This document shows positions 13,790-54,457 of a stretch of 57,273 bases of DNA, piece after piece. The DNA comes from a virus. The DNA is taken from positions 1 to 57,273 of IMG/VR virus record IMGVR_UViG_3300034101_003302; one strand, written 5' to 3'. Made by a program: the position numbers and the translations under genes. The notes under the pieces were generated by a model. That model saw only the letters and a program-made list of their open reading frames with translations, was not told the origin of the DNA and did no database searches. Each line of letters opens with the position of its first letter. Position 1 is the first letter of the stretch.

Positions 13790-13795
13790 GTTCTA

Positions 13796-13827
13796 CAAAT
13801 ATACAAGGTTTTATTTAATCTACCAAA
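13796..13827 (-). promoter_or_regulatory. Host-type promoter of tRNA operon, repeat copy 2
   Basis: TTTGGTAGATTAAA..., 20-nt spacer, TATATTTG (13796-13803); reads leftwards into the structured leader and tRNA genes. Confidence 0.8.
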
Positions 13828-13979: not shown

Positions 13980-13983
13980 TTTA

Positions 13984-14271: not shown

Positions 14272-14275
14272 AAAA

Positions 14276-14307
14276 CAAAAATAATGGTTTTTTTTTAATC
14301 TACCAAA
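14276..14307 (-). promoter_or_regulatory. Host-type promoter, repeat copy 3
   Basis: TTTGGTAGATTAAA..., 20-nt spacer, TATTTTTG (14276-14283), 4 nt before the ATG at 14271. Confidence 0.7.
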
Positions 14308-14317
14308 TTTATTTTTG

Positions 14318-14397
14318 TAGTCCGGGTGGGACTCGAACCCACAAGCCTGAGCAACAGAGCTTAAATCTGTCGTGTATACCAATTCCACCACCGGACC
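14318..14397 (-). tRNA. tRNA-Leu(TAA)
   Basis: Leu D-arm GTG-GAATTGGTATA-CAC, anticodon arm ACAGA-TTTAAGC-TCTGT, T-arm GTGGG-TTCGAGT-CCCAC. Normal length, unlike its oversized relatives. Confidence 0.88.
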
Positions 14398-14423
14398 ATT
14401 ATTCACACCAATATTTCAAAGAA

Positions 14424-14453
14424 CAAAAAAACCCCTCTTTTTTGGAGAGGGGT
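14424..14453 (-). terminator. Intrinsic terminator
   Basis: Minus strand ACCCCTC / GAGGGGT followed by seven T; ends the unit 15748-14619. Confidence 0.9.
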
Positions 14454-14618
14454 CTTAAAATTTTATATGTACAAAATATTACACCCTCTCCTTGAAAGTT
14501 CTCTCAGCTAAATCGCCCCCTAACAATGATATGTGTAAATTTTTCATTTGCGTTTTTTTAATTTGTTTTATAAATATACAATACTTTTTAAAAGTGTCAA
14601 GTTTTTTTAATTTTTTTG

Positions 14619-14698
14619 TACCTTCGGTGGGATTCGAACCCACAAAAACACCGCTTCTAAGGCGGTTAGCTGTGCCAGTTTACATTAGTCACGAAGGC
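14619..14698 (-). tRNA. tRNA-Leu(TAG), short variable arm
   Basis: Acceptor GCCTTCG/CGAAGGT, anticodon arm ACCGC-CTTAGAA-GCGGT (TAG, reads CUA). The variable region is only about 6 nt and the D-arm is irregular, odd for tRNA-Leu. Confidence 0.7.
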
Positions 14699-14707
14699 AT
14701 TTATATG

Positions 14708-14778
14708 AGCTCAGGGAGGGATTCGAACCCCCGTACTCGGTTTTGCAGACCGGTGCCTAACCCCTCGGCCACCTGAGC
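14708..14778 (-). tRNA. tRNA-Cys(GCA)
   Basis: Acceptor GCTCAGG/CCTGAGC, D-arm GCC...GGC, loop CTGCAAA, discriminator T as expected for Cys. Confidence 0.9.
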
Positions 14779-14783
14779 TTATA

Positions 14784-15239
14784 TTAACGGCAGTGGTGAT
14801 CTGCCGCTCTTGTTGCAATTTGATTATGAGGTTTAATGTTTGTCTTATACCCCAAGGACATTGCCCATCCTGTTGCCGGTTGGACCAATTTTGAACTGAA
14901 GTGTTTATCGTCACTATTATAATCCAAATCAATTTCCACTTTCACATTAACTTTTTTAGTTAACCATTCGGCAACCTCAATTGAGTAATCGGCCTCATTC
15001 CATAATCTTGTCCATTTATCTTTAATCTTTTTTATCTTTTGTTTGTGGTATATATAATGGACCCCACGGTTACCATATCTATAAGCAATTGCGGTTACAT
15101 AGACCGTACTTCTTCTATGGTTTTGTGAGTCAGTCCCAATATGTACCTCAACCCAAGGACATTCTTTTATTATGTCAATTGTATGTTTTACAATGTCAGG
15201 AACAGATTCACCAGTTACTTTTCTGAATACTCTGTTCAT
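14784..15239 (-). CDS. RNase H-like protein, YkuK/DUF458 family
   Basis: 151 aa. VEVHIGTDSQNHRRSTVYVTAIA (~31-53) with the TDSQ acidic strand, then EADYSIEVAEWL and VEIDLDYNSDD match the DUF458/YkuK family, predicted RNase H-fold nucleases often carried by phages. The acidic residues D37, E87-region and D105-region could form the metal site. It lies between the cysteine-protease-like gene and tRNA-Cys in one transcript from the promoter at 15753, suggesting a role in RNA or tRNA turnover. Confidence 0.75.
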   Translation of the reverse strand: MNRVFRKVTGESVPDIVKHTIDIIKECPWVEVHIGTDSQNHRRSTVYVTAIAYRYGNRGVHYIYHKQKIKKIKDKWTRLWNEADYSIEVAEWLTKKVNVKVEIDLDYNSDDKHFSSKLVQPATGWAMSLGYKTNIKPHNQIATRAADHHCR

Positions 15240-15250
15240 AATTTCAAATT

Positions 15251-15748
15251 TTATTTTATTTCAAATGCCGACCTCATTGGTCGTTTTGTTTTTATCGCAT
15301 CTTCAGGGTTTCCAATAACAACACCATCTTTAATTGTAAATGCATGTCCTTTAACTAAAACAAAGAAAGTACCTTTAGGGTTTTTCTTTACAAACGTACC
15401 TACAGTCATTTGTCTTTTTACTTTTTCACCCTTTACTTTTACTTCGTATGAAAGTGAATATGGGTAAACTAAACTATTACTTTTTGTCCCAATAGGTATA
15501 AGTTTTTTACCGTTAACCTTTATAAAACTTTCAGAAAGTTTGACCAATTTGGATGTTGTAAAATATGTTCCTTTTCTTGGTTTTCTATTAAATTCTTCAG
15601 CAACATATTTATGAGCATAATCATAAGATACATCAAACGCCGAAGCAAACGCCCTAACAACACAATCATTTGTTTCAATTCTTGCGGTTACAGAATCACT
15701 ATAACCTTTAATTGCACTTCCTGTAGATTCGTATGGTAAATATTTCAT
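15251..15748 (-). CDS. Papain/C39-like cysteine peptidase candidate
   Basis: 165 aa. TNDCVVRAFASAFDVSYDYAH places Cys29 at the start of a helix, and GTFFVLVKGHAFTIKDGVVIGN supplies His135 and Asn147, the Cys-His-Asn order of papain-fold phage proteases. No signal peptide, no leader; cytoplasmic. A host-type -7 element lies 4 nt before the ATG, so it is an early, nearly leaderless gene. It may process host or phage proteins; target unknown. Confidence 0.65.
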   Translation of the reverse strand: MKYLPYESTGSAIKGYSDSVTARIETNDCVVRAFASAFDVSYDYAHKYVAEEFNRKPRKGTYFTTSKLVKLSESFIKVNGKKLIPIGTKSNSLVYPYSLSYEVKVKGEKVKRQMTVGTFVKKNPKGTFFVLVKGHAFTIKDGVVIGNPEDAIKTKRPMRSAFEIK

Positions 15749-15752
15749 AATA

Positions 15753-15760
15753 CAAATATA
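15753..15760 (-). promoter_or_regulatory. Host-type -7 element
   Basis: TATATTTG 4 nt before the ATG at 15748; no clear -33 TTG. Confidence 0.55.
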
Positions 15761-15783
15761 ATGGTTTTTTTTATTTTATGAAA

Positions 15784-15791
15784 ATATTTAT
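15784..15791 (+). promoter_or_regulatory. ATATTTAT element (putative late promoter)
   Basis: ATATTTAT 32 nt upstream of the ATG at 15824. Confidence 0.5.
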
Positions 15792-15823
15792 AAAGTAAAT
15801 AAACTTAAAAAAAAACAAAAAAA

Positions 15824-16318
15824 ATGAAGGAAACGTATATTATTAAAAAATCACTAAACAATCGCTTATTTGGAGAATCTACATCTATTCCTAACGAGAC
15901 AAGTAAACAGAAGTTAATAAACGCATATTCATTTATGTTAATTTTATCAGATAGTTTTAATGAATCTAATCGCAAATTTGGTCAAAAACTTACACCATCA
16001 TACGATGGTTTTGCTATTGAGGATTGGCAAAAAGATATAAGCACAAGGATAAAAGAATTAGATACAATATATTGTTTTAGTTCAGTTACATTTACTTGTA
16101 TTTCTGATGGAGGTATTGAATACACTCTTTGTGACGGTACAGTAGTTCAATCTTCTTGTAGATTTGGAGTTAATGTATTAAAAGAATGTATAAGAAAAGA
16201 TAGTTTAAAAGGTTTTGAGGATAGAAAAAAACCAATTAGATCGGCAACCATAAGAGATGTAAGATATACTTTTCCTTGTAAAGGTGACGTAACAACAACC
16301 ACTACCACATCAAAATAA
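15824..16318 (+). CDS. Leader-bearing protein, apparently frameshifted at a Thr linker
   Basis: 164 aa. N-terminus MKETYIIKKSLNNRLFGES resembles a packaging leader (LFGE). The body is alpha/beta with CISDGGIEYTLCDGTVV. It ends in a Thr linker (TTTTTTSK) at a TAA. In the +1 frame from about 16290 to the stop at 16421 lies a Cys-rich module (C-x4-KGC...YKTLKEC-x3-C) like the YAC...GNC...YTTSNC-x2-AC module of the protein at 22872. The gene therefore looks like an approximately 197-aa protein broken by a frameshift, or made by programmed +1 shifting. Confidence 0.65.
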   Translation: MKETYIIKKSLNNRLFGESTSIPNETSKQKLINAYSFMLILSDSFNESNRKFGQKLTPSYDGFAIEDWQKDISTRIKELDTIYCFSSVTFTCISDGGIEYTLCDGTVVQSSCRFGVNVLKECIRKDSLKGFEDRKKPIRSATIRDVRYTFPCKGDVTTTTTTSK

Positions 16319-16421
16319 TTATTATGAATGTACTAATATTAAAGGGTGTGTTCAAAGTCCAATGGGAAAATACAAAACATTAAAAGAATGTGAAATGGTA
16401 TGTGCCAAATCATTACTATAA
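16319..16421 (+). pseudogene. Out-of-frame Cys-rich C-terminal module of the 15824 gene
   Basis: Open in the frame +1 to the upstream CDS: CTNIKGCVQSPMGKYKTLKE followed by CEMVCAKSLL. The spaced cysteines and the YKTLKEC signature match a repeated Cys module elsewhere in the window. It has no sensible start codon of its own. Confidence 0.5.
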
Positions 16422-16450
16422 AATATAGTATAACATAACTACATATTAAT

Positions 16451-16482
16451 AAGGAAGACATTTTGTCTTCCTTATTTTTTTT
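16451..16482 (+). terminator. Intrinsic terminator
   Basis: AAGGAAGAC / GTCTTCCTT (9 bp) with loop ATTTT and an eight-T tail; follows the out-of-frame module. Confidence 0.9.
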
Positions 16483-16483
16483 G

Positions 16484-16559
16484 TGGAACCATACGGAGTC
16501 GAACCGTAACCTCTGGATTTTCAGTCCAGCGTGACACACCACACTTACACCATAGTTCC
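16484..16559 (-). tRNA. tRNA-Phe(GAA)
   Basis: Acceptor GGAACTA/TGGTTCC, anticodon arm CTGGA-CTGAAAA-TCCAG, T-arm TACGG-TTCGACT-CCGTA. Confidence 0.92.
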
Positions 16560-16568
16560 TTATTTTAG

Positions 16569-16639
16569 CGCGTCCCCAAGGATTCGAACCCTGACCGATG
16601 GGTTTGGAATCCATCATGCTCCCTTTACACCAGAGACGC
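16569..16639 (-). tRNA. tRNA-Trp(CCA)
   Basis: Acceptor GCGTCTC/GGGACGC, loop TTCCAAA, discriminator G as for Trp. Confidence 0.88.
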
Positions 16640-16648
16640 TTGTTTTTG

Positions 16649-16721
16649 TACCCCCTCAGAGACTCGAACTCCGACCTGACGCCTTAGAAGAGCGTTGTAC
16701 TTCCAATTATACGAAAGGGGC
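16649..16721 (-). tRNA. tRNA-Arg(TCT), second copy type
   Basis: Acceptor GCCCCTT/AGGGGGT, anticodon arm ACGCT-CTTCTAA-GGCGT. Body differs from the TCT tRNA at 10959, so not a recent duplicate. Confidence 0.88.
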
Positions 16722-16725
16722 AAAT

Positions 16726-16890
16726 AAAAGATGATGAACAACTTTATCAGGAATCTCGTCCTCAGACTTCACACACCATTAGAGAGTTGGGTTGTTACAT
16801 CAATACAATTAAGATTGAATACCTATCCTTAGTGTGTACCCTTGCGAACACCCCTCCGTGTCCGTTGTTCTACGCTTCCTATCATCTTTT
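16726..16890 (-). ncRNA. Compact structured RNA filling the Arg-Arg tRNA spacer
   Basis: About 165 nt closed by a perfect 10-bp helix (AAAAGATGAT / ATCATCTTTT), with inner CACAC/GTGTG and GTGT/ACAC helices and the motif ACAACGGACA near its 5' end (16859-16868). It abuts tRNA-Arg(ACG) within 2 nt. No ORF, no T-arm. ACAACGGACA recurs in the next spacer RNA. Confidence 0.55.
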
Positions 16891-16891
16891 G

Positions 16892-16964
16892 TACCTTCGG
16901 AGAGACTCAAACTCCCATCTTGTGATCCGTAGTCACGGGTTCTATTCAGTTGAACTACGAAGGT
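16892..16964 (-). tRNA. tRNA-Arg(ACG)
   Basis: Acceptor ACCTTCG/CGAAGGT, D-arm GTTC...GAAC, anticodon arm GTGA-CTACGGA-TCAC; A34 would be edited to inosine by host TadA. Confidence 0.85.
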
Positions 16965-16966
16965 AT

Positions 16967-17062
16967 AAATAGCTCTGGTCAACCACTCGCCACCCACCCC
17001 AGGGAATAAAGGGAATACCACCCTATATTTTGAGCCTAAGCCTTGTCCGTTGTGAACTATTT
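16967..17062 (-). ncRNA. Compact structured RNA filling the Arg-His tRNA spacer
   Basis: About 96 nt closed by AAATAG/CTATTT, containing ACAACGGACA (17046-17055) close to its 5' end as in the 16726-16890 element. It abuts both flanking tRNAs. G+C-richer than coding DNA around it. Confidence 0.5.
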
Positions 17063-17063
17063 G

Positions 17064-17137
17064 TGTGTATGATGGGGGTCGAACCCATGACCTCTTGAAC
17101 CACAATCAAGCACTCTGCCAACTGAGCTACATACACC
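17064..17137 (-). tRNA. tRNA-His(GTG)
   Basis: Anticodon arm CTTGA-TTGTGGT-TCAAG, with the extra 5' G(-1) typical of tRNA-His before GTGTATG/CATACAC. Confidence 0.92.
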
Positions 17138-17143
17138 ATGTAG

Positions 17144-17213
17144 TACCGATAAAGGGTATCGAACCCAATGACATCCAGGATATGAGCCCGGACCGAAAAC
17201 CTTTTCTATCGGC
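17144..17213 (-). tRNA. tRNA-Met or Ile2 (CAT), reduced D-arm
   Basis: Acceptor GCCGATA/TATCGGT, anticodon arm CCGGG-CTCATAT-CCTGG. The D region is short and weakly paired (70 nt in total). A candidate Ile2 for AUA if lysidine-modified. Confidence 0.75.
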
Positions 17214-17219
17214 ATGTTG

Positions 17220-17308
17220 AGGAAAGCAGTGGTAACGATCCACAATCGGTTTCTCACCGATCACATTGTTTAGCAAACAAGTCCCGTCGCCTTCAGGGAT
17301 TACTTTCC
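17220..17308 (-). tRNA. tRNA-Ser(GCT)
   Basis: Class II: acceptor GGAAAGT/GCTTTCC, D-arm TCCC-TGAAGGCGAC-GGGA, loop TTGCTAA, variable arm ATCGGT-GAGAA-ACCGAT, T-arm GTGG-ATCGTTA-CCAC. The T-loop begins with A instead of T. Confidence 0.85.
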
Positions 17309-17420
17309 ATTTGTGGATGACATATAGAATCTTTAGTCTACTAAGGCAAGACCTCCATTTGGGGTTCCGTTAACCGATTCGTCTTTATAACCCCATACGG
17401 AACAAGCGGGATATCCATTG
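17309..17420 (-). ncRNA. Structured spacer RNA with possible pseudoknot
   Basis: 112 nt without ORF or tRNA. Minus strand has GTTCCGT/ACGGAAC (7 bp) with an internal GGGGTT that can pair with the AACCCC overlapping the 3' arm, a pseudoknot-like arrangement, plus GGAT/ATCC ends. Function unknown. Confidence 0.4.
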
Positions 17421-17493
17421 TGTTCACGACGGGTTACGATCCCATTACCTCCGACGTATCAGATCGGCGCTCTACCAATTGAGCTACGTGAAC
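17421..17493 (-). tRNA. tRNA-Ile(GAT)
   Basis: Acceptor GTTCACG/CGTGAAC, anticodon arm CCGAT-CTGATAC-GTCGG, T-arm ATGGG-ATCGTAA-CCCGT with A at T-loop position 1. Confidence 0.9.
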
Positions 17494-17499
17494 TTATTG

Positions 17500-17572
17500 C
17501 GGACAAGGAAGGGTACGATCCTACAACCTATCGGTTAACAGCCGATTGCTCTACCAATTGAGCTACTTGTCC
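17500..17572 (-). tRNA. tRNA-Asn(GTT)
   Basis: Acceptor GGACAAG/CTTGTCC, anticodon arm ATCGG-CTGTTAA-CCGAT, T-loop ATCGTAC (A at position 1), discriminator G. Confidence 0.92.
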
Positions 17573-17583
17573 ATTTTTTTTTG

Positions 17584-17666
17584 TGGGAGAGGAGGGACTC
17601 GAACCCCCAAGGTCTCACGACGACAGATTTACAGTCTGCTGAGCCAACCAATTGCTCAACTCTCCC
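17584..17666 (-). tRNA. tRNA-Tyr(GTA)
   Basis: Class II: acceptor GGGAGAG/CTCTCCC, anticodon arm CAGA-CTGTAAA-TCTG, long variable arm, T-loop TTCGAGT. Confidence 0.92.
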
Positions 17667-17672
17667 TTATTG

Positions 17673-17746
17673 TACACTCTACAGGGATCGAACCTGTGAC
17701 CTGTTGTATGTAAAACAACCGCTACTACCTGCTGAGCTAAGAGTGT
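17673..17746 (-). tRNA. tRNA-Val(TAC)
   Basis: Acceptor ACACTCT/AGAGTGT, anticodon arm GTTGT-TTTACAT-ACAAC. Two nt downstream of the 71-aa gene. Confidence 0.92.
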
Positions 17747-17747
17747 G

Positions 17748-17963
17748 TTATGAAGTTATCATTTTAATGCTTTGAATTGTAGTTGAATACAATCCTTGGT
17801 CTAAATAAGGTTTACTATCTTTAAGAAGATTTAAAACCGTATTTGTTGCCTGTTCTTGAGTTTGTCCTTGTTTAACTAAACGTACAATAGCTCTTTCACA
17901 TTCTTCACCAACTTTAACCATTCCTTTTGGTAGTCCTTTCTTAATTTCTTTTACCGTTTTCAT
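17748..17963 (-). CDS. Small hypothetical protein (71 aa)
   Basis: 71 aa, MKTVKEIKKGLPKGMVKVGE...LLKDSKPYLDQGLYSTTIQS: a helical, basic protein. The host-type promoter 4 nt upstream predicts a leaderless mRNA, and the transcript would continue into tRNA-Val, Tyr, Asn, Ile and beyond. No family recognised. Confidence 0.65.
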   Translation of the reverse strand: MKTVKEIKKGLPKGMVKVGEECERAIVRLVKQGQTQEQATNTVLNLLKDSKPYLDQGLYSTTIQSIKMITS

Positions 17964-17967
17964 ATTA

Positions 17968-17998
17968 CAAAGATAACGGTTTTTTTAATTCTACCAAA
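17968..17998 (-). promoter_or_regulatory. Host-type promoter, repeat copy 4
   Basis: TTTGGTAGAATTAAA..., 19-nt spacer, TATCTTTG (17968-17975), 4 nt before the ATG at 17963. Confidence 0.8.
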
Positions 17999-18004
17999 TT
18001 TTTG

Positions 18005-18079
18005 TGATCCCGGTGAGGTTCGAACTCACGACCCCTCCATTAAAAGTGGAGTGCTCTAAACCAACTGAGCTACGAGATC
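18005..18079 (-). tRNA. tRNA-Lys(TTT)
   Basis: Anticodon arm CTCCA-CTTTTAA-TGGAG; acceptor GATCTCG/CGGGATC. Its 5' end contains the stop codon of the HNH gene. Confidence 0.92.
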
Positions 18080-18657
18080 TTCTGTTTGTCATACTTGTCA
18101 CTTTCCATAACACTTGTTTTTATTTGTTTATTTAATTTATTTCTATATTCATCAATTTTTCCTATAACCTCATCTTTATATTTTGAATGGACATATTGAT
18201 GATGTGTCGGACATAACGGTATCAAATTTTCAATTGAGTTGTTATTATGGTTTTCATCATAATGATGAACGGAAACTATTTTATTTTCCCCACAAACAAC
18301 ACATTCTTTTTTATGGTGTTCAAAACATATTCGTCTGTAATGATTTTTTTCACCAGATAAATTACCATAGTTTGGGTTATTTTCTCCTGATCTGAAATAT
18401 GTATTTGAACAAGAATGAGAACAAGTAGTTTTTTCTCTTTTATGGTTAACCATTGTTTCAAATCTATTTCCGCAAACAGGACAATCTTTTATTTTTCTTT
18501 CATATATAAAAGGTTGTTTAGATAAATGTGAAATGTCAATTTCATTTTCTTTAATAAGTTTTTCAAACTTTCTTCTTGATGTCCCATTATCATATCCATA
18601 TATAGACCGAACCGCTTGTGATTTTGTTTTACTGTTTTTTATAATATCTCTTTCCAT
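18070..18657 (-). CDS. HNH homing endonuclease
   Basis: 195 aa. A zinc-finger-like pair (CPVCGNRFE..., CSHSCSNTYF) is followed by an HNH core: CVVCGENKIVSVHHYDENHN, N-IENLIPLCPTHHQYVH. Complete Cys-His zinc ribbon and HNH residues are visible. The stop codon (TAG) lies within tRNA-Lys, so gene and tRNA overlap by 10 nt, an intimacy typical of mobile endonucleases that target tRNA loci. An ATATTTAT element precedes the start. Confidence 0.85.
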   Translation of the reverse strand: MERDIIKNSKTKSQAVRSIYGYDNGTSRRKFEKLIKENEIDISHLSKQPFIYERKIKDCPVCGNRFETMVNHKREKTTCSHSCSNTYFRSGENNPNYGNLSGEKNHYRRICFEHHKKECVVCGENKIVSVHHYDENHNNNSIENLIPLCPTHHQYVHSKYKDEVIGKIDEYRNKLNKQIKTSVMESDKYDKQKIS

Positions 18658-18662
18658 ATTAA

Positions 18663-18670
18663 TAAATATT
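18663..18670 (-). promoter_or_regulatory. ATATTTAT element (putative late promoter)
   Basis: ATATTTAT 5 nt before the HNH gene ATG at 18657. Confidence 0.5.
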
Positions 18671-18720
18671 TGTGTTTGTCGTAAAAATCACTTTTAGTCA
18701 AAATCTTTTTATACGATTGT

Positions 18721-18789
18721 CGAATGTGTACGAATCGAACGTCTCCCGAATGTCCCAAACATCCTGTGCAACCATTACACCACACACTC
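18721..18789 (-). tRNA. tRNA-Pro(TGG)
   Basis: Acceptor GAGTGTG/CACATTC, anticodon arm GGATG-TTTGGGA-CATTC. T-stem is weak. Confidence 0.8.
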
Positions 18790-18798
18790 GTTATTTTT

Positions 18799-18885
18799 TG
18801 GAGGAAGAGTGAGGTGTCGATCCCCATACCTTTCAGTACCTGCCGTTTTCAAGACGGAGTCACAAGCCGTTGTGATTACCCTTCC
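18799..18885 (-). tRNA. tRNA-Ser(TGA)
   Basis: Class II: acceptor GGAAGGG/CTCTTCC, anticodon arm CCGT-CTTGAAA-ACGG, T-arm TGGGG-ATCGACA-CCTCA (A at T-loop position 1), CCA encoded. Confidence 0.88.
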
Positions 18886-18891
18886 TTAATG

Positions 18892-18962
18892 TTGTTCCCC
18901 AAGGACTCGAACCTCGATTCCACGGACCAAAACCGCGTGTCCTGCCATTAGACGAGGGAACA
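18892..18962 (-). tRNA. tRNA-Gln(TTG)
   Basis: Acceptor TGTTCCC/GGGAACA, anticodon arm CGCGG-TTTTGGT-CCGTG. Confidence 0.9.
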
Positions 18963-18998
18963 TTATAAGGCCAATATGTCAAAGAACTTTTTCTTTTG

Positions 18999-19071
18999 AG
19001 GTTTCTATCGGGTTCGAACCGATGACTCCGGGTTACAAAGCCGGGATATTACCAAACTATACTAAGAAACC
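18999..19071 (-). tRNA. tRNA-Thr(TGT)
   Basis: Acceptor GGTTTCT/AGAAACC, loop TTTGTAA, T-arm ATCGG-TTCGAAC-CCGAT. Confidence 0.9.
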
Positions 19072-35068: not shown

Positions 35069-35482
35069 ATGGAATTAATAAATACTCACCCAATAAAAAA
35101 ATCAGATTTAGGTTTTCATGGTAATCTTTTTGGTGGAAAACTTTTAGCTTGGATTGATGCCTCCGCGGCTGGTTATGCAATGCAACTTTGTGATACCCCA
35201 AGAATGGTAACAGTATCAATAGATAAATGTAATTTTGAAAAACCGGCAAGAGAAAGTCAGTTACTTAAAATATATGCAAAACCATCAGATGTTGGTCATA
35301 CTTCTGTAACTTTATATATGGAAGCAAGAGCACACAATGTTTACACAGGAAGGCAAGTTTTAGTATTAAAAACACATATTAAATTTGTCCACATTGATGA
35401 AGAAGGAAACCCAATACCAATTGGTGAAAAAGGAAAAAATAGAATAAATAAATTAATAGAAAATTATACTGATAATGAATAA
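35069..35482 (+). CDS. Acyl-CoA thioesterase (hotdog fold)
   Basis: 137 aa. HGNLFGGKLLAWIDASAAGYA (~18-38) is the hotdog signature of YciA/BACH-type acyl-CoA hydrolases, with FEKPARESQLLKIYA and HTSVTLYMEARA following. Full length for a single-hotdog enzyme, which would act as a hexamer. It hydrolyses acyl-CoA to free fatty acid and CoA. Overlaps the GMP reductase start by 8 nt, so the two are coupled auxiliary metabolic genes. No leader. Confidence 0.85.
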   Translation: MELINTHPIKKSDLGFHGNLFGGKLLAWIDASAAGYAMQLCDTPRMVTVSIDKCNFEKPARESQLLKIYAKPSDVGHTSVTLYMEARAHNVYTGRQVLVLKTHIKFVHIDEEGNPIPIGEKGKNRINKLIENYTDNE

Positions 35483-36437
35483 AACTTTTGATTTTGATGA
35501 TATTACATTATTACCAAATTTTAGTTTAGTTGAGTCTAGATCTGAATGTAACGCAACCTGTGTATTTGGTGGGTATAGATTTAAATTACCAATAGTACCT
35601 GCAAATATGGAAAGTATTATTGACGTTAATTTGGCAAAAGAGTTATCCAAAAAAGGATATTTTTACATATTACATAGATTCAATATTGATGAGGTTTCAT
35701 TTGTTAAAGATATGAAAGACCATAATTTAATTGCATCCATTTCTGTTGGTGTAAATAAAGACTCTTATGAATTAATAGATGAATTGGTTTTAAAAGATTT
35801 AATTCCACATTTCATTACTGTTGATATAGCACACGGACATTCAATTAAAATGATGAACATGGTTAAATATATTAAAGATAAAATGCCAAATGTTTTTTTA
35901 ATTGGTGGTAATGTTTGTACACCACAAGCAGTTACAGATCTTGAGTTATGGGGTTGTGATTCAGTAAAATGTGGTATTGGTGGAGGATCCGCCTGTACTA
36001 CATACCACTCAACAGGATTTGGTAATCGTGGTTGGCAGGCATCAATGATTGAGGAATGTGTAAAAATTGCAAAAAAACCAATTGTTGCCGATGGATCAAT
36101 AAAGGAACATTGTGATATTGTTAAAAGTTTAGTACTTGGGTCTTCTATGGTTATGATTGGAGGAATGCTAGCAGGTTACAATGAATCTCCTGGTGAAAAA
36201 ATTAAAAATGATTCAGATGGTCATTGGTATAAAGAATTTTGGGGTAGTGCGTCTTCTTCACAATCAGGAAAAACAAATAGAATTGAGGGTATTAGAAAAC
36301 TTGTACCATATAAAGAGATATCTATTTTTGATAAATTAATTGACCTTGAAGAGTCCTTACAAAGTGCAATATCATACGCTGGGGGAAATCCAAATACTAT
36401 AGAATGTTTATATAATGTGAAATATGTGGTAAAGTAA
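35475..36437 (+). CDS. guaC: GMP reductase / IMPDH-family enzyme
   Basis: 320 aa (beta/alpha)8 enzyme without CBS domains. DFDDITLLPNFS at the N-terminus, VPANMESI, KCGIGGGSACTT with the catalytic Cys174, the flap region HSTGFGNRGWQAS, and IVADGSIKEHCDI for phosphate binding, all as in GuaC (NADPH + GMP to IMP + NH3). GMPR versus IMPDH is decided by absence of CBS domains and by size, not proven. It would shift purine pools toward IMP/AMP during AT-rich genome replication. Confidence 0.82.
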   Translation: MNKTFDFDDITLLPNFSLVESRSECNATCVFGGYRFKLPIVPANMESIIDVNLAKELSKKGYFYILHRFNIDEVSFVKDMKDHNLIASISVGVNKDSYELIDELVLKDLIPHFITVDIAHGHSIKMMNMVKYIKDKMPNVFLIGGNVCTPQAVTDLELWGCDSVKCGIGGGSACTTYHSTGFGNRGWQASMIEECVKIAKKPIVADGSIKEHCDIVKSLVLGSSMVMIGGMLAGYNESPGEKIKNDSDGHWYKEFWGSASSSQSGKTNRIEGIRKLVPYKEISIFDKLIDLEESLQSAISYAGGNPNTIECLYNVKYVVK

Positions 36438-36883: not shown

Positions 36884-37414
36884 ATGAGAATGCATAGAAT
36901 TTCAGAATCAGATATTAGAAGAATCGCCAATAGAATTTTAAAAGAGGAAGATTCAGAAACAAAAAGAAAAAAAGAAGAGGTAAAACCAAGATGTGTACGT
37001 GAAAATGTTATTCCTTTAGATGAAATAGTTGGTAGAGCGGAAGAATATGGTAGATATTCACCAGGTATATCAAAAAGACAATCAGGAGTAAACTCAATGG
37101 TTGATACATTAGGTATATTAAATAACATTAGACTATTTAAAGATGTTAAAGATGGTGGTTCTCATTTGGCTTATGAAATGATGAATAATCTGAACAGATT
37201 TAGAAATAAAAATTATCATGATGAGACTACCGGAGAGTGTCATAAAGCTATGGATAAAATAATTGAGTTATATAAAGAAAATGAACATGGTACAGAACTT
37301 GTTAAAGATATAGAAAGAGTTTTAAATCTACAAACAAGAGAGGATGAATATACCCCATCTCCAAGAGCAAAAGAATATCTTAAACAATGTATTAATTTAG
37401 TTAAAGGACAATAA
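36884..37414 (+). CDS. Leader-bearing protein (176 aa)
   Basis: 176 aa. Leader ISESDIRRIANRILKEE (residues ~5-21) is an LTESDL variant ending I-L-K-E-E. The rest is helical and charged with a conserved-looking SGVNSMVDTLGILNNIRLFK segment; no family recognised. Followed by a perfect palindrome and a terminator. Confidence 0.72.
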   Translation: MRMHRISESDIRRIANRILKEEDSETKRKKEEVKPRCVRENVIPLDEIVGRAEEYGRYSPGISKRQSGVNSMVDTLGILNNIRLFKDVKDGGSHLAYEMMNNLNRFRNKNYHDETTGECHKAMDKIIELYKENEHGTELVKDIERVLNLQTREDEYTPSPRAKEYLKQCINLVKGQ

Positions 37415-37555: not shown

Positions 37556-37819
37556 ATGAAAAACTTTTTTAATCAGTTATTTTGTGATAATAACTCAATC
37601 AATGAAAAATCAGTTGTTGGTTTTATCGCTTTTGTTATGATGTGTTTATTTGCAGGTGCTGACATCGTAACAGGTTTTATGGGTATGCCATTAGTTATAA
37701 ATGAATTTATATTTAATTCTTTTTTAATTTTGGTACTTGGTTCTTTCGCGATAGGATCTGTTGATAAATTTATCAATAAAAAACACGGATCAGAAAACGA
37801 AGAGACCCCATCTGAGTAA
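37556..37819 (+). CDS. Holin-like membrane protein (87 aa)
   Basis: 87 aa. Two transmembrane segments (~23-43 VGFIAFVMMCLFAGADIVTG; ~50-70 FIFNSFLILVLGSFAIGSV) with a charged C-terminal tail (KFINKKHGSENEE). Similar in plan to phage holins and to the 55-aa protein at 4433, but far from the endolysin. Monocistronic with terminator. Confidence 0.6.
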   Translation: MKNFFNQLFCDNNSINEKSVVGFIAFVMMCLFAGADIVTGFMGMPLVINEFIFNSFLILVLGSFAIGSVDKFINKKHGSENEETPSE

Positions 37820-38140: not shown

Positions 38141-38371
38141 CTACTTTTTCTTTAAAAAGTCCTGAATTGCCTTTAATTGTTGGTCAAAATCATTGGTAAT
38201 TCCACCAAAACTACCCGTTTTTGGGTTTTTTAACATGTTTTGGTTCATTTTTGATAGATTTTTAGCCATTTCGAAGAAAGATTTACCAAATTTTCTCCAC
38301 CAAAACACCATTCCGACCGCAATTGACACCAAAACAACTGTAAAAATGATTAATACTACTGTTAATAACAT
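38141..38371 (-). CDS. Single-pass membrane protein (76 aa)
   Basis: 76 aa. N-terminal transmembrane helix (LLTVVLIIFTVVLVSIAVGM) followed by a cytoplasmic basic/amphipathic tail (KFGKSFFEMAKNLSKMNQN). No leader. Possibly co-transcribed from the adhesin-like gene upstream. Unknown function. Confidence 0.65.
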   Translation of the reverse strand: MLLTVVLIIFTVVLVSIAVGMVFWWRKFGKSFFEMAKNLSKMNQNMLKNPKTGSFGGITNDFDQQLKAIQDFLKKK

Positions 38372-38425: not shown

Positions 38426-40672
38426 TTACCTAATTAATGTTATAAAACCATGTATTTCCTTCTTTTCGTCGGTATTTTTAACGCTAAATACGATTTTCCA
38501 CGTATAAATACCGTCTGGACAAAGTTTATTATTAAAAGTACCGTCCCATTTACCCGCAGGATCCTTAGATTCCCATATAATGTTACCCCAACGGTTAAAA
38601 ACTAACAATTCAAACCCATAATCATCATATCCTGACGTAAAAATAGGACCCCAAAGGGTATTAAACTCATCTCCATTAGGTGTAAACGTATTTGGGATGA
38701 AAATTAGCTCTTGTGGACACTCATCGAGAGTTATTGTTGTTTGTTGTGGTAAAGATTGACAACCATTTGCCGTTTGAGTGACATTAATAGTAAAAATACC
38801 AAATTCATCCCAACTATAATAAAGATTATCAACCTCAAAAGTGTCCCCCATAACAATCCATTCATATATTCCTGATAATGTTGATGATGTTGAGTAAATA
38901 ACACCTATACTGTCACCCTCACATAGTTCAAAATAACTATTTGATGGGTTTATATCGTTAAGTATTGGTCTTGGGTTAACAATAACGTTAATATTCGTAT
39001 TAAACATACACCCAGATTGGTAATAACTATAGGTAACGTTATCAGAACCAATATAACCATTGTCAGGACAGTATTGATTACCCCAAACGTTGTTTCCTAA
39101 GAACAAACCTCCTGATGGTGTTGCATTTAAGTTAACACAATTGTCATATTCACAATATGGACCCATAGGTGAGATGATCGGAAGTATATTTAGTACCTCA
39201 ACAGAGAAATTTTCAGTTTGACTCACACATCCATTAACGTTTTGACCATATACTGATACCATATTTGGGTATAATCCACCTAAAACCCCATTAACATCTA
39301 AATTTATTTGATTATTTCCTTGTCCTGATGTTATAATACCGTTTGTTACCGACCAAACATAGTTTAAATTGGGGGTAATACTTGAGATATTAAAAGAATT
39401 TGTTGATGAATTAAAACAAATAGTGTCAGATCCTATAATTGGGTCTATGGTTAATGATGGTGGGTCTATTAAATTAACTATAGATGAAACGGTACACCCT
39501 GCCGCGTCTATAATTGTAAATGAATATGGCCCTGAACATAATCCTGATTGATTAAATTGAGGTGGTTGTGATCCATTCCATGATATTGTCTGTATACCAT
39601 TTCCTCCCTGTGGTATTATATCGATAGTTCCATCACAATATGTATTACAGGTTGGGTTTGTAAAATTAATTATTGGTTGTGGTAAATTTGGAGGTCCTGG
39701 TTGTACAAATACGGTGTCAGGTCCTAATCCTCCGTTAGCATTACATGTTGCCCATCCGGCATTGCAAGAAGGATATACAAATCTACAAGTGTAATTAGCC
39801 CCTTGTGGTGGTGGTGTAACAGTAATTGTTGGTCCAGTACCAATTGGGTTTGGGTTACCTACCTGATACCAAGTTAATGTTGGTGTTACAACAGGACCTG
39901 ATGGGGTAAATCTAACCCCTTCATTTTGTGTTGACCATTGATTATTATTTCTAATTGATGTAGACACTGGTGGTTGTACCAAAATCGCCTGTGTTCCTGT
40001 TGAATTGTGTACTCCATGAACCGCATTTCCCGAATTCCAAGTACCACAAATAGGTTTATTTAGAATATGTGTCTCAATTACGTTTGTTGTTTCATAAATT
40101 TTAATTTGACTACTGTATAATTGGTTAGTACAAGAGAACATAGGTACCTGATAATAAGATATTACCAATCTTCTACACGGAGCAGTCCCATAAACCGCAT
40201 ATTTTATTGTACCACCAAGACCAGGGTTTATATCTTGCCAAGGACCCATAATACAATTCATAGGTGCTGATCCCGTACCATTAGGTATTGGGGTGGTTAC
40301 CCAAGTTGAGTTTTGACCAGCAGAAAACCCGACCCAATTGTTTGATGCAATATAAAAAGTGTTGTATGTTTGACCAAAAAAACAAAAATTAAATCCAATA
40401 GGGATTGATCCTGATATAGCATCGTCACCTAAAATAACTTGAGTTCCGTTTGTGTAGGAATCAGGAGAATAGGGAACGTTTGTTACTCCATAATTGGTTG
40501 TTTGATTTGGGTTTAATCCCGCCCCACATTGGGATAAATCTGCGGTTAAGGTGGTTGATCCGATCCCACAAGGTAATAATTGATCAGGCCCCAAGTAAGG
40601 ACAGTATTGTCCATAACCAAGGTTTGTTATTAAAATAAAATAAATTAATAATGTTTTTAAAAGAAATTTCAT
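38426..40672 (-). CDS. Type IX-secreted adhesin-like protein with gliding-type C-terminal signal
   Basis: 748 aa. Signal peptide at 1-21 (MKFLLKTLLIYFILITNLGY). Beta-rich repeats follow, including a SprB-like repeat (NPTCNTYCDGTIDIIPQGGN...GPYSFTIIDAAGCTVSSIV). The C-terminus (~665-748: FIPNTFTPNGDEFNTLWGP, LLVFNRWGNIIWES, WDGTFNN, DGIYTWKIVF) is the gliding-motility-associated/CHU_C type B sorting domain read by the Bacteroidota type IX secretion system. It carries the ATATTTAT element of the phage genes 6 nt upstream, so it is probably a resident phage gene, not contamination. It predicts display on the infected cell's surface. Confidence 0.9.
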   Translation of the reverse strand: MKFLLKTLLIYFILITNLGYGQYCPYLGPDQLLPCGIGSTTLTADLSQCGAGLNPNQTTNYGVTNVPYSPDSYTNGTQVILGDDAISGSIPIGFNFCFFGQTYNTFYIASNNWVGFSAGQNSTWVTTPIPNGTGSAPMNCIMGPWQDINPGLGGTIKYAVYGTAPCRRLVISYYQVPMFSCTNQLYSSQIKIYETTNVIETHILNKPICGTWNSGNAVHGVHNSTGTQAILVQPPVSTSIRNNNQWSTQNEGVRFTPSGPVVTPTLTWYQVGNPNPIGTGPTITVTPPPQGANYTCRFVYPSCNAGWATCNANGGLGPDTVFVQPGPPNLPQPIINFTNPTCNTYCDGTIDIIPQGGNGIQTISWNGSQPPQFNQSGLCSGPYSFTIIDAAGCTVSSIVNLIDPPSLTIDPIIGSDTICFNSSTNSFNISSITPNLNYVWSVTNGIITSGQGNNQINLDVNGVLGGLYPNMVSVYGQNVNGCVSQTENFSVEVLNILPIISPMGPYCEYDNCVNLNATPSGGLFLGNNVWGNQYCPDNGYIGSDNVTYSYYQSGCMFNTNINVIVNPRPILNDINPSNSYFELCEGDSIGVIYSTSSTLSGIYEWIVMGDTFEVDNLYYSWDEFGIFTINVTQTANGCQSLPQQTTITLDECPQELIFIPNTFTPNGDEFNTLWGPIFTSGYDDYGFELLVFNRWGNIIWESKDPAGKWDGTFNNKLCPDGIYTWKIVFSVKNTDEKKEIHGFITLIR

Positions 40673-40677
40673 ATAAC

Positions 40678-40685
40678 ATAAATAT
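40678..40685 (-). promoter_or_regulatory. ATATTTAT element (putative late promoter)
   Basis: ATATTTAT 5 nt before the adhesin-like gene ATG at 40672. Confidence 0.55.
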
Positions 40686-40752: not shown

Positions 40753-41034
40753 ATGAATAGAAAAAAAATACTACAACTTTTTTTAGATACTCAACTAAAA
40801 GAAGAAATAGAAAATATTTTTGGTAAAAATAGTCATATTTCGATTAACAATCTAACTTATGTTAGGAGTAAAGACTCATATTTAATTAACACAACTCTTT
40901 ACGTAAAAGAGTTAGATGACTTTGACGTTTTATACCCAACTAGTTTAATTTCATTTGTTAAAATGGGTTGGGGTGTTGTGGGACACAAAAAAGATATTAT
41001 TATTCAGTCTTCATTTGATCTTGTTCAAGAATAA
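40753..41034 (+). CDS. Hypothetical protein (93 aa)
   Basis: 93 aa, MNRKKILQLFLDTQLKEEIE..., small alpha/beta protein. No recognised motif. Its 3' end overlaps the convergent gene at 41000 by 35 nt, an unusual tail-to-tail overlap; both frames look coding. Confidence 0.55.
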   Translation: MNRKKILQLFLDTQLKEEIENIFGKNSHISINNLTYVRSKDSYLINTTLYVKELDDFDVLYPTSLISFVKMGWGVVGHKKDIIIQSSFDLVQE

Positions 41035-41194
41035 TACCTAACTCAAGTAATCCTTTTATTGTTTTATTTAAAGGAGCTTTAATAAAATACTTTTCATTTT
41101 CATTTCTGAAAAAACACCAACCACTTAAAGCGGTTCTTAATTTTTCATAATTTTCTTTATCTTTTACTTTATATACTTTTAATCCCACCACCAT
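41000..41194 (-). CDS. Hypothetical protein (64 aa)
   Basis: 64 aa, MVVGLKVYKVKDKENYEKLR..., basic. Starts 16 nt inside the upstream gene (41179) and ends inside the convergent gene at 40753. Unknown function. Confidence 0.5.
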   Translation of the reverse strand: MVVGLKVYKVKDKENYEKLRTALSGWCFFRNENEKYFIKAPLNKTIKGLLELGIILEQDQMKTE

Positions 41195-41769
41195 CTCATT
41201 CTTTCTTTTAAAATTTTAAACAATAAATCATGTGCCTTTTTTTCATTATGTTTTGCAACATAAAAACATAAATCTTTTTTATCTAAACCTGAGTTCTTTT
41301 TCAGTACTTCACGAACACTTAATGGGTACTTTCTTAAGTATTCATCGTAATTTTCTGAAATTAAATCTTGTTCTAATGTGTATCGATCATTATCACCCTC
41401 AATAGGTTCAAATCTGAATTTAGTTTCAGAGTAATCAAGATACTCAGTGCCGTAATAATCTTCTTTTACTCTTTCTATTAGGTTTAAAACAATGGTCATA
41501 TCACGATTATCGCGATCAACTTGCATATGACGATTTGCGTAGATGATTTCTTCTCTCTGAAACTCTATTTTTTTCTGAAGGATTGTTAATATGTACCAAT
41601 CATCCCAATCTTTATCTTTATATAGTGTTGGTATCCATCTTAGGATATTTTTACATCCACCGATAAAATATCTTATTCTCCAGTGTAGATTTCTCCAAAT
41701 ACGAGCAGAGATAGTTTTTCTATTCCATGCAGAATCTTCAGGTATTATTAGTTTTTTGTAGTTTTTCAT
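41179..41769 (-). CDS. Conserved phage protein of unknown function (196 aa)
   Basis: 196 aa. W/Y/R-rich first half (WNRKTISARIWRNLHWRIRY, DWDDWYILTILQKKIEFQRE) resembling a protein family I recall from many large phages without known role, then acidic. No leader. Host-type -7 element TATATTTG about 20 nt upstream, so early. Overlaps the upstream membrane protein gene by 32 nt. Confidence 0.65.
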   Translation of the reverse strand: MKNYKKLIIPEDSAWNRKTISARIWRNLHWRIRYFIGGCKNILRWIPTLYKDKDWDDWYILTILQKKIEFQREEIIYANRHMQVDRDNRDMTIVLNLIERVKEDYYGTEYLDYSETKFRFEPIEGDNDRYTLEQDLISENYDEYLRKYPLSVREVLKKNSGLDKKDLCFYVAKHNEKKAHDLLFKILKERMRWWWD

Positions 41770-43726: not shown

Positions 43727-44332
43727 ATGAGAACTGTAAAACTATTTTTTTTTATATTTATTTCATTTTTTTCTAACTCACAAAGTAGTCATTTTAATGA
43801 AGATAGTATAAAAAAATATTTTTTGGTTGAGTTGGATTCTTTTAGAAAAGGTCTATATCCTTCCGTACCTGATGTTATTGTCAATGAAAATGCGAGTATC
43901 GCATGTAAACATCATAATGAATATATGACAAATATGGTTAAACCTAATTATTTTTTCTGTTCTCATGGAGAGTTTCAGTCAGATAAAGGATTTACATACG
44001 TCGGATCTGATACTTTGATTTCTAATTTTGCCAATAGAATTAAATATTACAATACAAATAAAGATTTTAGTCCTTATGGTGAGGTAATAGTTGGTGAATT
44101 TTTAAATTTATATATTAAAAATAAAAGGACCAATGAATATTTAGCAAAAAATTTATTTTTAGATTTAAAAGAATCTTCAGAACACAATAAAATTTTAAGT
44201 AATTTTGGGTACAATGTTGTTGCTATAGATGTTAAAATATTTAATAATATTATATATGTGACTATGGTTGTTGGTGTTATTATTGAAAAATCTGAGGATG
44301 GTAAAATAGTAATTATAAAAAATAAAATTTAA
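43727..44332 (+). CDS. Secreted CAP-domain protein
   Basis: 201 aa. Signal peptide ~1-18 (LFFFIFISFFSNSQ). The mature part fits the CAP/SCP superfamily: NENASIACKHHNEYM (helix with His), FCSHGEF, GEVIVGE and the C-terminal SSEHNKILSNFGYNVVAIDV / NIIYVTMVVG strand pair. CAP proteins of bacteria are secreted with unknown or protease-like roles. Plus-strand single gene with a host-type promoter, the same architecture as the secreted proteins at 219 and 53954. Confidence 0.7.
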   Translation: MRTVKLFFFIFISFFSNSQSSHFNEDSIKKYFLVELDSFRKGLYPSVPDVIVNENASIACKHHNEYMTNMVKPNYFFCSHGEFQSDKGFTYVGSDTLISNFANRIKYYNTNKDFSPYGEVIVGEFLNLYIKNKRTNEYLAKNLFLDLKESSEHNKILSNFGYNVVAIDVKIFNNIIYVTMVVGVIIEKSEDGKIVIIKNKI

Positions 44333-46119: not shown

Positions 46120-46424
46120 AAGTCACAAATTATTTTTCTTCTAATCCATACAGAAGGATTTTTTCCCTTTTTACTTAACTTATCTACTAAATATTTTATT
46201 TTATCATTAACATCTGATTTAAATTTAGACATATCTCCACCTGATTTTTTTATCTTTATTTCAATGGAGTTCCAAATTTTATCTAATTTACTTTCTAATT
46301 TAGAGTCATCTTTGTTTAATTTTTTTATTTCATTAGTTTCATCAATAAAAGATGTATCATTATAAATTAATGATTCGTTTATTACATATTTTTTTAAAAT
46401 ATTTTTAATAATTCTTTTATTCAT
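46110..46424 (-). CDS. Leader-bearing small protein (104 aa)
   Basis: 104 aa. Leader MNKRIIKNILKKYVINES, ending I-N-E-S; then a charged helical body (DDSKLESKLDKIWNSIEIKI) ending NPSVWIRRKIICDLWV. ATG overlaps the upstream NlpC/P60 stop by one base. Confidence 0.68.
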   Translation of the reverse strand: MNKRIIKNILKKYVINESLIYNDTSFIDETNEIKKLNKDDSKLESKLDKIWNSIEIKIKKSGGDMSKFKSDVNDKIKYLVDKLSKKGKNPSVWIRRKIICDLWV

Positions 46425-47077
46425 TATGATAATCTACCGTATCCTGCTATTTTATTTCCCCAATAAGAGCTTTTATTAACTCCATTTTTTGTATAATTTG
46501 TTTTTTCTGTATCTTGTATGCCTGACGATGAAGATGCGTGTACCATATGAAAAATTTTTTCTCCTTTTTCGTTTTTTCCTACGTTTGAAACTAAACCAAT
46601 ATGGCTTATTTTCCCACCATCTTTAAAAAATACTAAATCTCCAGGTTTTATATCATTTATAGTAAGTTTAGTAACTTTAGGTGAATTATAAATACCTGAT
46701 GCTGTTCTTGGTATAGTTTGGTCACTTACGCTTGATAAGATCCCAACCTGAGTTAATAAAAATCTAATAAATCCACTACAATCAAAAGATTTAGGTCCTT
46801 GTGATCCATACACATATGGAATACCTAAATAATTTTTAGATAATTCAACTATTTGTGGTTCAACATTATTAGATTCATTTTGATCTAAGTTTTCCTGATT
46901 TTCTGTTGTTGTGGTAGTAACAATATTTTTATGTTCTTCAGACCCATCATTCAAATCAGGAGAATCCATAATAGTTCTATTATATGGTATTTGACTGTCC
47001 TGCTCATTTAATGAAAACTCAATAGAGTTATACATTCTAAGTATTCTTCTTTTTTCGTTATTTGATATTTTTTTCAT
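46424..47077 (-). CDS. Leader-bearing NlpC/P60 endopeptidase
   Basis: 217 aa. Leader MKKISNNEKRRILRMYNSIE...LNEQ (residues 1-26), Thr/Asn-rich linker (~50-72), then an NlpC/P60 domain: GIPYVYGSQGPKSFDCSGF with Cys100, GDLVFFKDGGKISHIGLV with His159, FHMVHASS with His180. Cleaves peptide stems of peptidoglycan (typically D-Glu-diaminopimelate bonds). With a leader instead of a signal peptide it is probably carried in the virion and used at entry. All catalytic residues present. Confidence 0.88.
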   Translation of the reverse strand: MKKISNNEKRRILRMYNSIEFSLNEQDSQIPYNRTIMDSPDLNDGSEEHKNIVTTTTTENQENLDQNESNNVEPQIVELSKNYLGIPYVYGSQGPKSFDCSGFIRFLLTQVGILSSVSDQTIPRTASGIYNSPKVTKLTINDIKPGDLVFFKDGGKISHIGLVSNVGKNEKGEKIFHMVHASSSSGIQDTEKTNYTKNGVNKSSYWGNKIAGYGRLS

Positions 47078-47079
47078 AA

Positions 47080-47370
47080 CTAATATTCTGGAAAAGTTGA
47101 TTTACCTATTTTTAATCCTTTTGGTAAATCAAGATCATCTAATGATCTTGGTCTTTGGACTCTTTTTATTTTCTGAGGATTATACTTATGATTTAACCTA
47201 TTTAATTCTATTTTGTATGGATTACCAAATTCATTTAATCTATTAATAACGTCGTCTATTAGTTCAGTTTTTTCTGATGCTGATATTCCGGTCACAAAAT
47301 CATCATTTTCATTAATAATTCTTCTTATAACTCTTATTAATTCACTTTCTGTTAGTTTTATCTCTCCCAT
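47080..47370 (-). CDS. Leader-bearing small protein (96 aa)
   Basis: Start at ATG 47370 (MGEIKLTESELIRVIRRIIN), since an upstream TTG would overlap the neighbouring stop. Leader LTESELIRVIRRIINE is a close LTESDL variant ending I-N-E. The body is short and basic with a Pro/Arg-rich piece (KVQRPRSLDDLDLPKG region). Lies between M23 and NlpC/P60 peptidase genes. Confidence 0.7.
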   Translation of the reverse strand: MGEIKLTESELIRVIRRIINENDDFVTGISASEKTELIDDVINRLNEFGNPYKIELNRLNHKYNPQKIKRVQRPRSLDDLDLPKGLKIGKSTFPEY

Positions 47371-47371
47371 C

Positions 47372-48109
47372 TTAATCAAAAATATTTTTTATTTTATCGA
47401 AAAATACACTTCCAACCTTTTTCATTTTATCCCACAAATCAACTTCATCTTCAGCCTTAATGTCACCTTCTTCTGTTTTTTCTTCAGGGCTAAAAAACTT
47501 TTTAAAGTAATTTTTAAATTTACTACCAAGGTCTTCATATTCTAAATCAGAAGGTTTTTTTGGTTTTTTATCTATAGCACCTTTTAATATATCTAAAGGG
47601 TCTTCACCTGAGTAAAAACCACCACTTGTTTTATAAATGTTATAATGTAAATGTGGTGCGGTTCCTTTAGCGTTTCCTGAATCACCTAAAGTACCAACCT
47701 GTTGTCCGGCAAATACAAAATCACCTTCTTTAACTGTAATAGAATCTAAATGTCCTAACCAATGTGAAAATCCTGTTTCAGGATCTTCTACAATAACGGT
47801 TAATCCATTACCACCAAATTTAACTTTTCCATCTACAGGAGCTAGTATTGCGGTTCCTCTAGGTCCAAAAATATCAACACCAATATGTCCATTTAAATGT
47901 CCTCCAGCACCGGCGTATGTTGGTTGTCTTGAGAAATCTGTATTTGCAGTACCTCTTGGGTTACTCCAATCATCCCATTTTTGATCCCAACCTATATTAT
48001 ATCTACCCCCATCTATTGGAAATGCATCTAAATCAGGTAATGATTCATTTATACCGTGAGATCTTAAAATGTGTTTTTTTTCCTCTTCAGAAATTATTAA
48101 TTTTTTCAT
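47372..48109 (-). CDS. Leader-bearing M23 metallopeptidase
   Basis: 245 aa from ATG 48109; a longer frame to 48136 exists, but a GTATTTAT element at 48125 favours the shorter form. Leader MKKLIISEEEKKHILRSHGI-NES. M23 (lysostaphin-type) domain: HLNGHIGVD (His75, Asp79), GFSHWLGHLDSI, and PHLHYNIY (His153, His155) complete the zinc site. Cleaves peptidoglycan cross-bridges or stem peptides. Acidic C-terminal tail. Paired with NlpC/P60 in the same operon as packaged wall hydrolases. Confidence 0.88.
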   Translation of the reverse strand: MKKLIISEEEKKHILRSHGINESLPDLDAFPIDGGRYNIGWDQKWDDWSNPRGTANTDFSRQPTYAGAGGHLNGHIGVDIFGPRGTAILAPVDGKVKFGGNGLTVIVEDPETGFSHWLGHLDSITVKEGDFVFAGQQVGTLGDSGNAKGTAPHLHYNIYKTSGGFYSGEDPLDILKGAIDKKPKKPSDLEYEDLGSKFKNYFKKFFSPEEKTEEGDIKAEDEVDLWDKMKKVGSVFFDKIKNIFD

Positions 48110-48124
48110 AAAAAACGTTTTTAT

Positions 48125-48132
48125 ATAAATAC
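48125..48132 (-). promoter_or_regulatory. GTATTTAT element (putative late promoter variant)
   Basis: Coding-direction GTATTTAT 15 nt before the M23 gene ATG at 48109. Confidence 0.45.
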
Positions 48133-48166
48133 TCAAACATTTTAAAATATCTTTTTTAATTAAAAA

Positions 48167-53953: not shown

Positions 53954-54457
53954 ATGAAAACCCTATTGATCTTTTTACTTACTGTTTTAAGTTTTAACTC
54001 TTTTTCTCAAAACACAATAGAAGTCTCCTTTTCAAAAAGAAGTAGATTTGCGCTATACGGTAAAGATTCACTTCATTTAATGATTAAAAATACCGGTTTA
54101 TTACCAGTAGAACAACTTTATGAGCCTTTGGACTTGAGGTTTGTTATAAACAAAAAAACAAGAAAGGCCTATCGTTTTAAAAATGGTTCTCCTTTTGATA
54201 CATTAAATATCAAAAAAATAGAATTTAAAGACAGTATATATACAATCACTTGTATCGAAAAACGAGATGAAATGTATGCTCACTATGAAGGTCAAATGAT
54301 TGATTGTTATTTAGTTATTGATACAAGAAAAAATCCGGTTAATAAAAAACAACCTAAAGTATGTTATTGGTGGTGTTGGGATATCTACATGAACGATGAA
54401 CCTGTAGATTACTGTAAAGGTTATGTTAGTGATTATGTAACTGTTAATATGAAGTAA
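53954..54457 (+). CDS. Secreted protein of unknown function (167 aa)
   Basis: 167 aa. Signal peptide 1-18 (KTLLIFLLTVLSFNSFSQ). The mature domain is beta-rich with SFSKRSRFALYGKDSLHLMI, KKTRKAYRFKNG and a Trp/Cys-rich C-terminal part (VCYWWCWDIYMNDEPVDYC) whose cysteines could form disulfides in the periplasm. Own host-type promoter and terminator. Together with 219 and 43727 it forms a small set of early exported proteins. Confidence 0.75.
   Translation: MKTLLIFLLTVLSFNSFSQNTIEVSFSKRSRFALYGKDSLHLMIKNTGLLPVEQLYEPLDLRFVINKKTRKAYRFKNGSPFDTLNIKKIEFKDSIYTITCIEKRDEMYAHYEGQMIDCYLVIDTRKNPVNKKQPKVCYWWCWDIYMNDEPVDYCKGYVSDYVTVNMK

Follow-up and report, generated by a model that had tools for sequence, protein, structure and literature searches.

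A conserved protein of very large tailed phages, predicted to be exported by the type IX secretion system of the host

Introduction

Why should a phage carry a gene for a protein with the export signals of a bacterial surface adhesin? This question is raised by the IMG/VR virus record IMGVR_UViG_3300034101_003302, the whole of which (57,273 bases) is called the window in the following. An open reading frame of its minus strand (38426-40672; ATG start) encodes a protein of 748 amino acids, which in an original prediction, made from the letters of the DNA, had been regarded as a SprB-like surface protein secreted by the type IX secretion system (T9SS). Phage-encoded T9SS cargo is already known (PMC7468147; PMC6949934); a conserved family of type B cargo in huge phages was, however, not found reported in the open-access literature.

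The evidence described below suggests that the protein probably reaches the exterior of the infected cell through the T9SS of the host and is displayed there, a judgement which concerns the display and not its benefit. Export by a host machine, together with display, would let a virus remodel the exterior of its host.

Export signals and class of the sorting domain

All features of the gene lie on the minus strand. The C-terminal part of the protein (residues 655-748; 38429-38710) is a sorting domain of T9SS type B, which passed the cut-offs of two collections: CHU_C of Pfam was matched at residues 658-746 with 55.4 bits (E 6.6e-15; cut-off 27), and TIGR04131 of NCBIfam was matched with 50.2 bits (cut-off 35). 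Both profiles were found in all 27 family members scanned, and in an alignment of 28 phage proteins the blocks PN-FTP-G, NRWG and WDG of this domain are invariant. At the other end, residues 1-21 (40610-40672) have the appearance of a Sec leader, with a charged start and a hydrophobic stretch, followed by a glutamine, Q22, which is invariant in the aligned phage homologues and before which cleavage is predicted. A glutamine directly after the leader is described as a property of substrates of Bacteroidetes signal peptidase I (Q-rule; PMC5837995), and the invariant Q22 after a hydrophobic leader fits this rule. Thus, a genuine phage gene with Sec and T9SS type B signals of the kind known from host surface adhesins, as had been claimed, is present.

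Type B substrates of Flavobacterium johnsoniae require a PorP/SprF-like shuttle, which is mostly encoded next door; a single shuttle, Fjoh_1677, serves three orphan substrates (Fjoh_1123, Fjoh_1720 and Fjoh_4934), and orphan substrates are placed with those that are sent to the gliding machinery (PMC12618676). A shuttle encoded by the phages themselves was considered and rejected, since no PorP/SprF was detected in 17 phage records, while the same search yielded, as a positive control, 3-16 copies in each of eight bacterial genomes with related proteins. The sorting domain, moreover, is of a class without adjacent PorP/SprF genes. Using a PorP/SprF profile built from 20 sequences, such a gene was found just downstream of none of the 78 bacterial sorting domains which most resembled that of the phages (those with profile scores of at least 80 and enough sequence beyond them for the following gene to be seen). 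Bacterial sorting domains with PorP/SprF linkage, 16 in number, scored far lower with the phage profile (25-64). The two sets were gathered differently, the 78 by likeness of the sorting domain and the 16 through PorP/SprF genes; the absence of linkage among the 78 is informative because the selection by likeness was blind to shuttles. Phages without a shuttle gene, but with a sorting domain of the unlinked class, should borrow a shuttle from the host, and the phage protein looks like an orphan type B substrate which would do so.

Domain order of the family

Between leader and sorting domain the phage proteins share a common order: a conserved N-terminal domain (N-domain) to about residue 325, SprB repeats, and a stalk of PKD-like and immunoglobulin-like (Ig-like) modules. 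In the window protein, the N-domain comprises residues 22-325 (39698-40609), as supported by alignment, an AlphaFold2 model and the related host family described below; a PKD-like stalk domain follows at residues 408-486 (39215-39451; PKD_6 of Pfam, 38.4 bits, cut-off 25), and Ig-like modules are evident in the AlphaFold2 model and by Foldseek at residues 487-652 (38717-39214). The repeat on which the designation SprB-like was based (residues 336-369; 39566-39667) is present in weak form, with 19.1 bits, below the Pfam cut-off of 28 for a repeat of the SprB gliding adhesin. Within the family, SprB was matched at E<0.001 by 12 of 27 members (best 9e-15), and the number of copies is 0, 1 or 2. 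The repeat is a stalk module which some homologues lack, and neither a SprB-like function nor that of an adhesin is established by it. The two shortest homologues, L047 and L049, are wholly devoid of a stalk and consist of N-domain and sorting domain only.

Phage context and conservation

The contigs carrying the gene are real tailed phages. The search for phage homologues with T9SS signals, which had been proposed as a check, yielded relatives in 51 further IMG/VR loci, mostly of full length, with 41-72% identity in the best segment and on contigs of up to 304 kb; a relative with 48% identity is encoded in LR745206, a phage record of 634,780 bp. Terminase was present in 11 of 17 records, including LR745206 and four of the five records of 274-304 kb. 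A search of 16 records found CHU_C in every one, with a single copy in each of these five and four copies in LR745206. When contigs were picked by their terminase, independently of the gene, four of ten contained it. Gene order in other assemblies excludes a chimeric contig, which would have explained the locus as an artefact: in the 290-kb phages L030-L032 the gene is flanked by the window's own neighbours, with homologues of 41179-41769 and of 40753-41034 to one side of it and of 38141-38371, 37556-37819 and 36884-37414 to the other, and synteny was seen also in L002 and L011. Two further loci (L005:562-4605 and L053:4309-6807) encode different proteins which end in a T9SS type B sorting domain.

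No part of the protein is better conserved than the N-domain, which has a mean column identity of 73%; averaged over pairs, identity amounts to 71% in the N-domain, 53% in the sorting domain and 41-51% in parts of the stalk. The ratio of nonsynonymous to synonymous substitutions (dN/dS) was 0.06 for the N-domain between the window and L002; most close pairs gave values of about 0.03-0.2 for N-domain and sorting domain, dS being near saturation in more distant pairs. These values show strong purifying selection between close pairs. Modules are shuffled between phages: L002 has the N-domain of the window (91% identity) joined to the stalk and sorting domain of L003 (dN 0.07-0.12), and L011 has an N-domain in common with the window (87%) and a very different stalk.

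The original prediction had also pointed to a phage element at the start of the gene. The word ATATTTAT (40678-40685), which ends 5 nucleotides before the ATG and is common to about 20 genes of the window, is indeed enriched: it occurs 41 times against 20.3 expected, none of 100 shuffles reaching 41, and it is found in sense orientation within 45 nucleotides of the start of 20 of the 69 called genes, as compared to 5 for the reverse complement. On the sense strand it is located mostly 10-29 nucleotides upstream of start codons; this holds for related phages as well, and the word is a candidate promoter or translation element. Since the exact word is missing before many homologues, it marks the integration of the cargo gene in the phage gene set, while its regulatory class is not proven.

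Other genes of the window

A two-component pair is encoded at 6147-8721 on the minus strand, consisting of a histidine kinase (N-terminal hydrophobic segment, GAF, PAS and HATPase domains; 6598-8721) and a response-regulator receiver protein (6147-6584). The two are 91% and 94% identical to their counterparts in L011, where the pair directly adjoins the T9SS gene. A gene for IMP dehydrogenase/GMP reductase (35475-36437, plus strand) has 73% identity in the 290-kb phages, and 22 tRNA genes, covering most amino acids, occupy about 8 kb (10959-19071, minus strand). Three small proteins (219-650, 43727-44332 and 53954-54457, all on the plus strand) have leaders ending in SQ, of the Q-rule type; neither a T9SS sorting domain nor a clear Pfam family was found in them. 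An N-terminal capsid-targeting tag common to neighbouring genes was considered and dropped, as only scattered matches were obtained.

Predicted structure and origin of the N-domain

The AlphaFold2 model of the N-domain is all-beta (predicted local distance difference test score, pLDDT, 83; predicted template modelling score 0.78), and a pLDDT of 82 was obtained for the full chain; for one structure prediction the alignment did not contain the protein of LR745206. Viral fold matches of the N-domain (best E 4e-9) were uncharacterised phage proteins and uninformative on function. The chain of Ig-like modules gave as top Foldseek matches the solved stalk pieces of grappling hook protein A (GhpA) from Aureispira (PDB 9flw and others), with a best E of 1.1e-17.

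The N-domain is a host family: of 299 genomes from the order of L079, searched with the phage profile, 200 contained it. L079, a member of Flavobacteriales UBA6165, encodes the closest cellular protein, with 54% identity in the N-domain. A weakly supported branch of the tree (63/85) had 39 phage N-domains to one side, of which 36 were grouped with support of 99/96; the N-domains of the window, L002 and L011 formed a separate branch. On the simplest reading, the phages acquired the gene from a Flavobacteriales host, once or twice.

Proposed role and alternatives

On this reading, a clade of very large tailed phages keeps a gene that was taken from a Flavobacteriales host. In the infected cell, Sec would export the protein, which would be cleaved before Q22 and passed through the T9SS of the host; a PorP/SprF-like shuttle of the host, serving type B substrates which have no shuttle gene of their own, would then collect it. 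On the surface of the infected cell, the conserved N-domain would project on a stalk whose length varies, and would there most likely change how the cell meets other phages or surfaces.

The order of domains, the class of the sorting domain, the conservation, the phage context and the lack of a phage shuttle are seen in the sequences themselves, while secretion, surface display and the use of a host shuttle are predicted from them. Several points weigh against this interpretation. Orphan type B fusions, when highly produced in F. johnsoniae, were not secreted unless the shuttle was co-produced (PMC12618676), and display could therefore be poor with phages that bring no shuttle. The N-domain is without a solved relative, by sequence or by fold (best fold match E 0.02, probability 0.14). 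Finally, a contig of 126 kb, belonging to the same terminase clade and expected to extend as far as the gene, is without it; the gene is thus not needed everywhere, being common rather than universal.

As the benefit of display we favour interference with the adsorption of further phages (superinfection exclusion), a speculative suggestion which has rather less than an even chance of being correct; aggregation of cells and altered gliding had been named beside it in the original prediction. Superinfection exclusion would fit because, in F. johnsoniae and F. columnare, a role as phage receptor was proposed for the gliding machinery (PMC7345892), and because the same benefit was suggested for the cargo of Cryophage (see below). 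More tentatively still, huge flavobacterial phages could perhaps put a receptor-like protein of their own on the gliding tracks of the host: the orphan-class sorting domain would engage a general-purpose type B shuttle of the host, so that none need be supplied by the phage, and exchanges of N-domain, stalk and sorting domain between phages would fit both the exposed head and the export tag to different hosts. That the gliding motor would propel the protein along the cell is predicted here from the class of the sorting domain only.

A displayed N-domain might instead bind cells or particles, so that infected cells would clump or attach and burst near new hosts. The stalk resembles that of GhpA, a bacterial surface adhesin, and is variable in length, as in adhesins; however, no ligand or binding-domain family was recognised by Pfam or by sequence and fold searches for solved relatives, and we regard adhesion or aggregation as rather doubtful.

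It is also conceivable, although unlikely, that the protein serves mainly not for display but to occupy the PorP/SprF shuttle of the host, which is scarce, or else the exit of the T9SS, as a result of which type B adhesins of the host, perhaps including the phage receptors, would vanish from the infected cell. This would agree with a substrate carried without any shuttle in the phages, with the proposal of the gliding machinery as receptor cited above, and with the reports that shuttles are of low abundance and that overproduced type B substrates are not secreted (PMC12618676). For such jamming the sorting domain alone would suffice, yet it is the N-domain which is best conserved and strongly constrained, and L047 and L049, having dropped the stalk, keep the N-domain along with the sorting domain.

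Ig-like domains are common in phage structural proteins, and matches to tail- and lysis-type genes occur within 10 kb (46424-48136). The protein could thus be a head decoration or fibre, whose Ig-like and sorting modules merely resemble those of host surface proteins. Such a role in the virion is very unlikely: the export leader is invariant and a full T9SS sorting domain is present in every member, while Sec export is not normal for virion proteins; furthermore, the window protein had no PHROG match, and its five viral fold matches at E<=0.001 were uncharacterised or otherwise unrelated phage proteins and no named virion part. Passive cargo, i.e., a host gene acquired recently and without a role in the phage, or else a chimeric assembly, is largely refuted. 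The relative in L079 does point to a family of host origin, but conserved synteny, purifying selection, the occurrence of just one copy per record in the largest records and the weakly supported position of the 39 phage N-domains in the tree argue against both.

If display on the infected cell is true, type IX secretion, which is confined to Bacteroidota and kin, would be a regular tool of phages for remodelling the surface of infected cells. The conserved gene should then provide a handle on the receptor of these phages, and also on the purpose of the PorP/SprF shuttle shared by orphan type B substrates.

Comparison with known systems

The closest counterpart in a cell, the chromosomally encoded protein of L079, has the same type of leader and of sorting domain as the phage protein, but is longer (1085 amino acids), has a different stalk and is located among chromosomal genes. 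The likeness to GhpA, a very large protein, is restricted to repeated Ig-like modules, and global TM-scores are low. SprB and other type B substrates of F. johnsoniae (PMC12618676) have in common with the phage family the Sec leader, TIGR04131, an adhesin-like architecture and, for part of the family, SprB repeats; the present protein differs in being encoded by a phage without a shuttle gene, in its much smaller size compared to SprB, and in having a sorting domain from the class that lacks neighbouring shuttle genes.

Among phages, open reading frames of Bacteroidota phages with or near a T9SS sorting domain were described for crAss-BACON (PMC6949934); these contain BACON repeats and lie near head genes, whereas the present family is without such repeats. 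Cryophage (PMC7468147) is similar in that its genes have T9SS sorting domains, the system of the host is thought to be used, and superinfection exclusion was suggested. Its sorting domains, however, are of type A and are attached to variable enzymes and a PA14 protein, while the family described here has type B domains on one conserved adhesin-like protein. The family would appear to be a new variant of phage-encoded cargo: a conserved type B protein of the gliding-adhesin class in huge phages, which have no shuttle of their own and use a sorting domain of the unlinked class.
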